The notes beneath the pieces are model-generated. The model worked only from the letters and a program-made list of their open reading frames with translations, was not told the DNA's origin and made no database searches. A stretch of 32,191 nucleotides of DNA from positions 1 to 32,191 of the forward strand of contig JANWZJ010000016.1 of assembly GCA_025054525.1 (NCBI GenBank), read 5' to 3'. Of this stretch, positions 2,460 through 5,340 are shown piece after piece. A program made the position numbers and the translations under genes. This stretch comes from Bacteroidia bacterium. GTDB taxonomy: Bacteria > Bacteroidota > Bacteroidia > SpSt-205. Within the stretch, counting starts at the first letter, position 1; every line of letters starts with the position of its first letter.

Positions 2460-4472
2460 ATGGAGCCTTCTGTAGCCGAAAAGCCATATTTTGCTTACCG
2501 AGCCGAAGGTATTCCGAAGGAGATACTGCTAAAGCTTCATAAAGAAATGCTCTATGCCCGGATGATTGAAGAGAAGATGCTTTCTCTGCTGCGTCAGGGT
2601 AAAGTAGCGAAATGGTTCTCTGGCATAGGGCAGGAAGGTATAGCGGTTGGCTCTACGCTAGCACTCCGAGAGACGGATTATATTTTCCCGTTGCATAGGA
2701 ACTTAGGGGTATTCACGAGTCGGGGGATGCCTCTTCGCAAACTCTTCGCGCAGTGGCAGGGAAAAGCCTCGGGTTTTACCAAAGGACGCGAGCGTTCTTT
2801 TCACTTTGGCGCCCCCGAGTATAGAGTAATCGGCATGATATCTCACTTAGCTGCGATGCTCCCCGTAGCTAATGGCGTCGGTCTCGCTTCAAAGCTGGAG
2901 GGAACGGACCTTATCGCACTAGCATTCATCGGCGATGGCGGTACTAGCGAAGGCGACTTTCACGAAGCCCTGAATGTAGCCAGCGTTTGGAAGCTCCCAG
3001 TGATTTTCCTCATAGAAAATAATGGTTATGGGCTTTCTACCCCTACCCATGAGCAGTTCGTCTGTCAATCCCTTGCCGACCGTGCGATAGGGTATGGCAT
3101 GGAAGGCTGCGTCATAGAGGGCAATAATGTTTTAGAGGTTTATCGTACGATTCGCGAGATAGCTGAGTCTATCCGGAAAGACCCCCGACCCTATTTAGTG
3201 GAAGCTATTACTTTTCGCATGCGCGGGCATGAGGAAGCCTCAGGCACTAAATATGTGCCTCCTCATCTCTTTGAAGAGTGGGGCCAAAAAGACCCTGTCC
3301 GCAACTATGAGCAGTTTCTCCTACAGGAGGGTTATCTCGCTGAGAGAGAACTCAAGGATTTGCGCAAGAACTTGAAAAGCCTCATAGATTCTGAGATACA
3401 ACCTGTCCTTCAAGAGCCTGAGCCTATTCCAGACCCCGCCCAAGAAGAAGCCGAAGTATATGCTCCTTGGGATGAACCCTTGGTATCCCCGCCTGCTGAC
3501 CCTGGTACTCGTAGCTTGCGGTTCGTAGATGCGATTTCTGAAGCCCTGCGCCAAGGAATGGAACATGACTCCAAGCTTATCCTCATGGGGCAAGACATAG
3601 CCGAATATGGAGGGGTCTTCAAGGTTACAGAAGGCTTCGTGGAGCGCTTCGGCAAAAATAGAGTGCGGAATACCCCCCTCTGTGAATCGGCTATTCTGGG
3701 AATGAGTCTCGGCTTGGGTCTGCGGGGATTTTCCAGCATGGTAGAGATGCAGTTCGCCGATTTCGTAAGCTACGGCTTCACGCAAATCATCAATAATTTA
3801 GCCAAGAATCATTACCGATGGGGGGTGCCGCCGCGAGTCGTGGTAAGGCTGCCCACTGGGGCAGGGGTCGGGGCTGGACCTTTTCATTCTCAAAGCCTGG
3901 AAGCGGTTTTCATGCACATTCCCGGACTCAAGATCGTCTATCCCTCTACTGCTTACGATGCCAAGGGTCTCCTCACTACTGCCCTGCGCGACCCTAATCC
4001 TGTCCTTTTCTTTGAGCATAAGGCCTTGTATCGCAGTATTCAAGACCCTGTTCCTCCTTCTTACTATAACCTTCCTCTGGGTGCGGCTCGGGTGGCTAAA
4101 ACAGGCAGTTCTCTCTCTATCATTACCTACGGAATGGGCGTAGTAGAAGCGTTGAAGGTAGCTCAAACCTTACCCGATATAAATATAGAGGTAATAGACC
4201 TGCGTACTCTGCTTCCATGGGACAAAGAGACCGTAGCGGCTTCTGTCCGCAAAACTCATAGAGCTTTAGTTCTGTATGAAGGCACCTACACGATGGGAGT
4301 AGGCGCAGAAATCGCTGCGTGGATCAGCGAATACCTTTTTGAATGGTTAGATGCACCGGTCATGCGATTAGGTTCGCTGGATACGCCTGTGCCATTTAGC
4401 TTGAGCTTAGAAGCGGCATTCCTTCCTTGGAAACGCTTGCCCGAAGTCGTGCGCAAACTCGCTGCTTACTGA
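2460..4472 (+). CDS. Fused E1 alpha/beta 2-oxoacid dehydrogenase (branched-chain type likely)
   Basis: The 670 residues join the two E1 subunits in one chain. The alpha half (about 20-330) holds the thiamine diphosphate motif, GDG at 158-160 through ENN near 186-188, and the RMRGHEE loop. An acidic, Pro-rich linker (about 330-350) leads to the beta half, with GQDIAEYGGVFKVTEG and the Glu of PLCESAILG, the usual position of the catalytic Glu. E1 decarboxylates a 2-oxoacid and passes the acyl group to E2 lipoyl. Fused E1 chains of this size are common in Bacteroidota and usually labelled 2-oxoisovalerate dehydrogenase. Pyruvate cannot be excluded from sequence alone. No E2 or E3 gene is nearby, so they must lie elsewhere. 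The following gene starts 1 bp after the stop. Confidence 0.92.
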   Translation: MEPSVAEKPYFAYRAEGIPKEILLKLHKEMLYARMIEEKMLSLLRQGKVAKWFSGIGQEGIAVGSTLALRETDYIFPLHRNLGVFTSRGMPLRKLFAQWQGKASGFTKGRERSFHFGAPEYRVIGMISHLAAMLPVANGVGLASKLEGTDLIALAFIGDGGTSEGDFHEALNVASVWKLPVIFLIENNGYGLSTPTHEQFVCQSLADRAIGYGMEGCVIEGNNVLEVYRTIREIAESIRKDPRPYLVEAITFRMRGHEEASGTKYVPPHLFEEWGQKDPVRNYEQFLLQEGYLAERELKDLRKNLKSLIDSEIQPVLQEPEPIPDPAQEEAEVYAPWDEPLVSPPADPGTRSLRFVDAISEALRQGMEHDSKLILMGQDIAEYGGVFKVTEGFVERFGKNRVRNTPLCESAILGMSLGLGLRGFSSMVEMQFADFVSYGFTQIINNLAKNHYRWGVPPRVVVRLPTGAGVGAGPFHSQSLEAVFMHIPGLKIVYPSTAYDAKGLLTTALRDPNPVLFFEHKALYRSIQDPVPPSYYNLPLGAARVAKTGSSLSIITYGMGVVEALKVAQTLPDINIEVIDLRTLLPWDKETVAASVRKTHRALVLYEGTYTMGVGAEIAAWISEYLFEWLDAPVMRLGSLDTPVPFSLSLEAAFLPWKRLPEVVRKLAAY

Positions 4473-4473
4473 C

Positions 4474-5340
4474 ATGTCCCCTTTCGGTGCATATCTGGGT
4501 TTATTCACGGGGCTGGTGATTATGGGGATGGGCATTTACCTGTATGTCAAGCCTCTTCCCGCTCATTTGCCCTGGTGGGTCGTGCAGGGACTACCCTTTT
4601 TTCTCGTGGCTTATGGGGCAGTCCGATGGGGTTACAGCTTCTATCTCGTCTGGCGCAAAAAACGCCCTTCCTCTTCCGCCCTATCTGCTATCCTGCTTCT
4701 AATCCTCAATGCCTGCAGCTCAGGCCCTGAACCAAACCTTCGCATTCGCTTTGACTATGTAGGGGATTGCTCCCACTGCCCTATTCAACGAATGGACTCT
4801 CTACTCCGGTTTCACTTTCCCTTAGGTGTCGTCGCTACAACCTTTGATAGTGTCCAGCATCAGGTAGTTTTGGATTTGGATAGCCAACATGTCCGCTTAG
4901 ACACGCTAAGCAAAGTGCTTTTAGCCTACGGATATGAAATCAACGGCGAAATCAGCATAGACCCCATTCTTTCCCCATGCTGCACTTATGTAGGCGAGGA
5001 GGCAAATACGCATGGGACAGAGATGAATACGCCTACCCCAATCTCTTCAGGAAGTGGCGATGCTTCTAAAAGACCTTCCGCCAGTTCTTCCATGTCTGAA
5101 TATGAAACCGAAACAGACCCCCATCTCCCTGAAATGGGTATCCTCTTACCTGAGGAGCAGTTAGAAGCCTCTATTGAAGCAGAACTCAATACGGATGAAG
5201 CACTTGGCATAGAGGATATTGATTTGGGGGACGGGATGGATTTGGGGGGGGCAGAACTGGAAGAACTGGATTTTGGGGATGATTTAGATTTAGACAATGA
5301 GGGCACTTCCCCGCCGAAAAAAGGTACAGCCAAAAAATAG
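4474..5340 (+). CDS. Two-TM membrane segment joined to lipobox and HMA-like CxxC domain with acidic tail
   Basis: The family is not recognised. The 288 residues fall into parts. Residues 5-26 and 34-60 are two membrane helices. A basic RKKR (61-64) and hydrophobic stretch ending LNAC (C81) look like an internal lipoprotein signal. Residues 88-162 have the beta-alpha-beta-beta-alpha-beta spacing of a heavy-metal-associated domain, with CSHC at 99-102 in the metal-site loop. CC occurs at 169-170. Residues 185-275 are Ser/Thr-rich then strongly acidic, ending in a Lys-rich tip. If RKKR is cytosolic, the CxxC domain would face the periplasm. It could be a metal or thiol protein, or two genes merged. 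It starts 1 bp after the E1 stop, and its last 51 bp overlap the convergent aroK. Confidence 0.75.
   Translation: MSPFGAYLGLFTGLVIMGMGIYLYVKPLPAHLPWWVVQGLPFFLVAYGAVRWGYSFYLVWRKKRPSSSALSAILLLILNACSSGPEPNLRIRFDYVGDCSHCPIQRMDSLLRFHFPLGVVATTFDSVQHQVVLDLDSQHVRLDTLSKVLLAYGYEINGEISIDPILSPCCTYVGEEANTHGTEMNTPTPISSGSGDASKRPSASSSMSEYETETDPHLPEMGILLPEEQLEASIEAELNTDEALGIEDIDLGDGMDLGGAELEELDFGDDLDLDNEGTSPPKKGTAKK

Follow-up and report, generated by a model that had tools for sequence, protein, structure and literature searches.

A composite Bacteroidia gene with two membrane helices, an internal lipoprotein-type signal and an HMA-like domain

What becomes of a lipoprotein signal that lies in the middle of a membrane protein? 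The question is raised by a gene in a 32,191-nucleotide contig of a Bacteroidia bacterium (JANWZJ010000016.1; this whole stretch of analysed DNA is called the window here). An earlier note on this DNA had described its product as two membrane helices, the basic sequence RKKR, a hydrophobic run leading to LNAC with C81, a CSHC motif and an acidic tail, and had offered two readings: fusion of a small membrane-protein gene with a lipoprotein gene, or a product cut in two by signal peptidase II. Each of these parts lies where that note had placed it. The features of the locus are the following.

2460..4472, forward strand: upstream gene for a fused alpha/beta E1 of a 2-oxo-acid (pyruvate-type) dehydrogenase, named by sequence recognition
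4474..5340, forward strand: composite gene, 288 amino acids from an ATG start; 11 orthologous proteins
4474..4659, forward strand: two-helix membrane module, residues 1-62 (AlphaFold2); conserved in 11 rows, with unfused counterparts L064, L057, L058 and L014
4654..4665, forward strand: RKKR (61-64), basic stretch after helix 2, n-region-like; basic residues in 11/11
4672..4713, forward strand: short hydrophobic run, residues 67-80, h-region-like, up to C81 (AlphaFold2 and sequence)
4714..4716, forward strand: codon of C81, invariant Cys at the lipobox position (LNAC); 11/11
4729..4968, forward strand: HMA-type ferredoxin-like domain, residues 86-165, by profile and predicted fold
4768..4779, forward strand: CSHC (99-102), a CxxC and predicted metal site, by sequence and alignment
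4978..4983, forward strand: CC (169-170), conserved second Cys pair, by alignment
4984..5337, forward strand: acidic low-complexity tail of D/E/L repeats with a basic very end, by sequence; low pLDDT

Architecture, distribution and neighborhood of the gene

AlphaFold2, run on the full protein with nine aligned rows, predicted helices at residues 4-25, 34-62 and 67-81 and a beta-alpha-beta-beta-alpha-beta domain at residues 89-164, with pLDDT below 50 at residues 170-226 and 236-286. The whole order of parts is kept in all 11 composites, and each contains exactly five cysteines, all five of which are aligned and invariant. A tail near-identical to that of the composite ends a 214-residue, otherwise unrelated-looking protein of genome G006 (L016, positions 1141-1785; EEDLDLEELDFGDDL), and from this likeness the acidic tail may be a low-complexity module that is reused within the genus.

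Composites were found in 11 of the 12 family genomes compared, namely 10 of 11 genomes of the genus (window included) and the one family genome from outside it. The genus genome lacking a match, G008, has an E1 contig that stops inside E1, and the composite would come next. At the level of the order, the HMA half was matched in 12 of 13 genomes; in the sister family genome, G012, it is an unfused lipoprotein. Eight named composite records come from Bacteroidia metagenome assemblies (KatS3mg025, the SKW and SKY series, and one labelled Sphingobacterium sp. RSWP8), several of which we take to be hot-spring series. A first scan of genome contigs returned no relative. Among 395 sampled genomes of the phylum, a full-length composite profile matched the window genome alone; the remaining genomes of the family had presumably not been sampled. 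That two genes were wrongly joined by annotation or assembly is practically inconceivable, as the identical joined frame occurs in 11 separate assemblies, including the single-contig genome G006; the 11 orthologous proteins rule out chance or artifact as the source of the part order.

In the window, a single base separates the E1 stop codon from the composite ATG; each of the other 10 orthologues has a stop with the same gap or with a one-base overlap (the upstream reading in G001 and G007 covers the 60 bases before the ATG). Because the stop nearly touches or overlaps the start, translation of the composite is probably coupled to that of E1. The E1 gene lies directly upstream in the window and at all eight loci read for context (L069-L076). 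At six of the eight, secG (named by eye) precedes E1, and a shikimate kinase gene (named by eye) lies downstream on the opposite strand at six of the eight as well as in the window. In G240, G264, G059, G347 and G186, the gene that follows E1 corresponds to neither half of the composite. The link to E1 is thus positional and, as far as seen, specific to the family of the composite.

Origin of the two halves

The earlier note had rested its metal-domain reading on an HMA-type, ferredoxin-like fold for residues 85-165, to be sought by profile and structure, and both searches bore it out. The best match of a 13-row profile was 2l3m (E 3.9e-5), followed by ATP7B, CopA, MerP and CopZ at 1e-3 to 1e-2, and the CxxC of loop 1 is invariant in all 13 rows. 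The domain is predicted to be ferredoxin-like. Residues 81-175 modeled alone with AlphaFold2 gave pLDDT 76 and pTM 0.63; Foldseek with the whole model returned CopZ, MerP and Atx1 as its small-domain matches (E 9e-3 and weaker). VIA-align superposed the predicted domain on Atx1 (1cc7) over 72 residues at 2.3 A with a Z of 8.5, a value that by the tool's own warning can reflect a common arrangement when near 8, and HMA proteins made up most of its list. In Pfam, single composite sequences went unmatched: the window protein matched no family at E up to 10, PF00403 included, and the composites L071 and L075 matched none at E up to 1. Among relatives outside the composites, PF00403 gave 17.2 bits for L013 and 19.0 for L031 against a cut-off of 24.8 and no score for L012 and L033; L038 passes with 44.8. 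By profile and predicted fold, the composite domain is a divergent HMA relative and is filed as HMA-like. With HMA proteins (PF00403; CopZ, Atx1, MerP) it shares a CxxC in the first loop, the beta-alpha-beta-beta-alpha-beta order and a GY(E) near the end. In HMA domains, Met often precedes the first Cys. The composite differs in lacking this Met and in failing the Pfam model, and it adds a CC pair, an acidic tail and the membrane module.

Unfused versions of this half have a signal peptide at their start followed by the Cys, the HMA domain with its CxxC, the CC pair and an acidic tail, and thus differ from the composite in lacking the fusion. Six were found (L012, L013, L030, L031, L032 and L033), from six genomes and five families; L013 and L030 belong to the same genus, and L012 is from the sister family. 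Beyond the order, 42 genomes matched the HMA profile, and 17 loci were read (L030-L046), 15 of which were judged, L034 and L045 being left out because they lie at contig ends. The two-helix module was fused to HMA in none of the 15. The secreted HMA proteins among L035-L046 have the domain and the CC pair in common with the composite and begin directly with a signal peptide. Such secreted proteins with a terminal CC occur across many Bacteroidia families: in a class-wide sample the HMA profile matched 54 of 395 genomes, a few of them through frames of P-type-ATPase size. Two were scanned, and neither passes an NCBIfam cut-off.

The other half also has unfused counterparts in other families, in L064 (73 amino acids), L057 (70), L058 (90) and L014 (64), which resemble the composite N-terminus in length, two helices, a YG..R motif and a basic end. 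Their similarity to it scores low (E between 2.7e-6 and 0.4, mostly 1e-4 or worse) and may be biased by membrane composition. The small two-helix proteins gave sub-threshold scores alone, to DUF308, DUF6114 and the SA1362 family, and the first 64 residues of the window protein matched no NCBIfam family at E up to 1. A two-helix start at a contig end of G012 (L127; E 0.03) is a very short fragment. Genome G347 encodes an HMA lipoprotein and a two-helix protein on separate contigs. The split relatives that the earlier note had proposed looking for therefore exist for both halves, with the two-helix proteins recognized by weak scores.

Spacing indicates to which half C81 belongs. The distance from the C81-type Cys to the first Cys of CxxC is 18 residues in 10 of 11 composites and 19 in one, whereas the distance from this Cys to the last Tyr of helix 2 takes seven values between 23 and 30 residues, always in frame. 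Because the first is nearly fixed and the second variable, the Cys goes with the HMA half. With unfused relatives of both halves in other families and C81 moving with the HMA domain, the fusion raised by the earlier note is well supported: the composite arose from a gene for a two-helix membrane protein and a gene for an HMA lipoprotein. From its restriction to one family and its shared place after E1, we infer that the fusion happened once, in an ancestor shared by the family.

Two other arrangements were considered. A two-helix gene overlapping the lipoprotein start in G012 was dropped, as a stop interrupts the upstream frame, in which there is no second helix. Separate translation of the second half was rejected as a conserved mechanism; it is unlikely because one frame is kept in 11/11 despite varying spacing and because the window protein and L006 have no ATG, GTG or TTG at residues 46-80.

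C81 and the fate of the lipobox

The earlier note had named orthologues without Cys at position 81 as a finding that would count against it. C81 is invariant in 11/11 composites, and all of them have the signal elements in the right order: a basic stretch, then a short hydrophobic run, then the Cys. The hydrophobic run has 12 to 17 uncharged residues in nine of the 11, the other two having Q at -2. Rather than forming an N-terminal signal peptide, this signal-like stretch is internal in 11/11, beyond both helices at roughly residues 61-81. In the excerpt of PMC8048626, the lipobox consensus is [LV][ASTVI][GAS]C, with G, A or S at -1 and with variations, and Ycf48 has an atypical yet functional box that deviates at -3, according to the excerpt of PMC8038367. 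At -3, the composites have L (nine) or M (two). At -1, they have A, S, R, Q, A, S, Y, Y, G, H and H (L001 to L011), so that G, A or S occurs in five of 11; in LNAC of the window protein, this residue is a permitted A.

We compared this count with three sets of lipoproteins, and because the compared genomes are related, all p-values on the -1 residue are a rough guide. G, A or S stands at -1 in 6/6 unfused HMA relatives versus 5/11 composites (p 0.043), and in 11/11 BamD-like lipoproteins of the order (p 0.012). The latter, named by eye, were matched in 12 of 13 genomes, one partly, and 11 had a readable N-terminus; in the nine genomes shared by both sets, the counts were 4/9 for composites and 9/9 for BamD-like proteins (p 0.029). 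Among N-terminal lipoprotein candidates of the genus, taken from three genomes (about 799 kb, 661 ORFs), the count was 16/20 (p 0.11). Three of the four candidates outside G/A/S are membrane-protein-like by eye, and with these dropped the count becomes 16/17 (p 0.007). On a tree of the 13 rows, in which 1 of 10 inner branches is starred (weakly resolved), the -1 class changes three times.

These data bear on whether the product is a polyprotein, in which Lgt would lipidate C81 and signal peptidase II would cut before it, yielding a lipidated HMA protein and a two-helix protein with the old signal peptide still attached. The presence of the Cys in unfused relatives as well as in every composite, the ordered signal elements, the aliphatic residue or Met at -3 and the permitted A of the window all fit such processing, but R, Q, Y, Y, H and H at -1 in six orthologues do not, nor does the prevalence of G/A/S in the three comparison sets. 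We regard the polyprotein as unlikely but a serious contender. Its full form, in which Lgt and LspA would act inside a polytopic precursor at an internal lipobox relaxed at -1 and yield the two-helix protein and a lipidated metallochaperone in strict 1:1 ratio, coupled to synthesis of a pyruvate-dehydrogenase-type E1, we consider rather unlikely. Judged from the aligned sequences, the case for signal peptidase II cleavage of the composite is weakened because -1 lies outside G/A/S in 6/11 orthologues; the window protein itself, with its permitted A, may be cut.

Since C81 is invariant while its neighbors vary, something keeps it, and C81 would still be needed for residual lipidation or in a thiol role. 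In the latter case, C81 would be an unlipidated fifth thiol by the membrane, serving as a metal relay or as a disulfide partner for CxxC or CC. The strict set of five cysteines, the near-constant 18-residue spacing to CxxC and the non-standard -1 residues are all consistent with this proposal. Against it, C81 comes right where the hydrophobic run stops, its counterpart in the unfused relatives is a standard lipobox Cys that lipidation explains, and the tether length may persist by descent. A fifth thiol is a doubtful candidate, if one to be taken seriously.

A membrane-anchored periplasmic product and its known relatives

Overall, we favor with moderate confidence an old single fusion that produced an inner-membrane-anchored periplasmic HMA protein, binding a soft metal, likeliest Cu(I), with an anchor independent of lipidation. 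A small two-helix inner-membrane protein would have been joined to a periplasmic lipoprotein with an HMA domain, CC pair and acidic tail. The single polypeptide would begin in the cytoplasm, with helix 1 running outward, helix 2 returning and the basic loop inside; the former signal peptide would then cross outward as a short third helix, placing the HMA domain against the periplasmic face of the membrane, with the acidic tail extending into the periplasm. The CxxC and CC pairs would bind the soft metal. The added helices would make anchoring independent of lipidation, which would explain why the lipobox of six of the 11 composites has lost the standard residue at -1. In this model we infer the topology, the metal, the partner and the lack of obligate cleavage. 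Against it, the hydrophobic run is short for a lasting membrane helix, and the invariance of C81 may mean that lipidation persists or that C81 is a metal or thiol residue; moreover, Pfam's HMA model does not match the window protein and the two-helix homology rests on weak scores.

A soft metal such as Cu(I) is suggested because four invariant cysteines form two pairs on a predicted HMA fold that would be periplasmic in the proposed topology. Apart from the composites, genome G052 encodes a CusB-type RND efflux adaptor with a related HMA and CC domain at its C-terminus (L043, positions 157-1755), which matched TIGR01730 at E 1.3e-39, CusB (NF007303) at E 7.1e-34 and, at residues 449-510, CopZ at E 9.4e-8. 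It is apparently a copper/silver efflux fusion and is the best lead linking the HMA and CC domain to copper. The source genome of the window has one HMA-bearing P-type ATPase, and SCO1 occurs in three of four genus genomes and is absent in G000, a pattern that is not decisive for copper. No metal gene adjoins the composite in the window or at the eight loci, a further point against the favored model. This absence, the lack of a Met before the first Cys and the two invariant Cys pairs would also suit a thiol or redox rather than a metal role for CxxC and CC in the envelope. Such a role is improbable, as the relatives by profile and fold are metal-binding proteins and a related domain is fused to a CusB-type adaptor.

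Whichever role C81 has, the composite is a clear natural example of fusion enclosing a lipoprotein signal within a membrane protein, and each part has unfused relatives. It allows one to ask directly whether Lgt and LspA can work on an internal site, and what becomes of a lipobox that another anchor would make dispensable; here the Cys stays and the neighboring residue drifts. The polyprotein reading would deserve more interest, if true.

Searches of the literature (internal lipobox, polytopic lipoprotein, Bacteroidetes HMA lipoprotein, MerTP) returned no such protein, which is not proof of absence, and none is described in the excerpts of PMC8038367, PMC8048626 and PMC2398784. Like substrates of Lgt and LspA, the composite combines a basic stretch with a short hydrophobic run that leads to a Cys; unlike them, it has this signal internally after two helices, with a non-standard -1 residue in 6/11.

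A similar known layout is that of MerTP and MerT-CopZ, in which membrane helices and then an HMA domain are placed on one chain. MerT itself has a Cys pair in helix 1 that is required. The composite helices, in contrast, are without Cys in 11/11, the first Cys of the window protein being C81, and unlike in MerTP the third segment is lipoprotein-signal-like. The MerTP and MerT-CopZ models (NF033556 and NF045683) match the HMA part of unfused relatives, NF033556 weakly; the window protein matched no NCBIfam family at E up to 10, with the MerTP and MerT models included. The earlier note knew of no family with this order; this stands in that the helices are of another kind and the window protein matches no NCBIfam model, and needs qualifying in that MerTP fusions also put HMA after membrane helices. 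The order of two helices, internal lipoprotein-type signal, HMA domain and acidic tail is without a Pfam or NCBIfam model, and each of the halves that it brings together is known or at least recurring.
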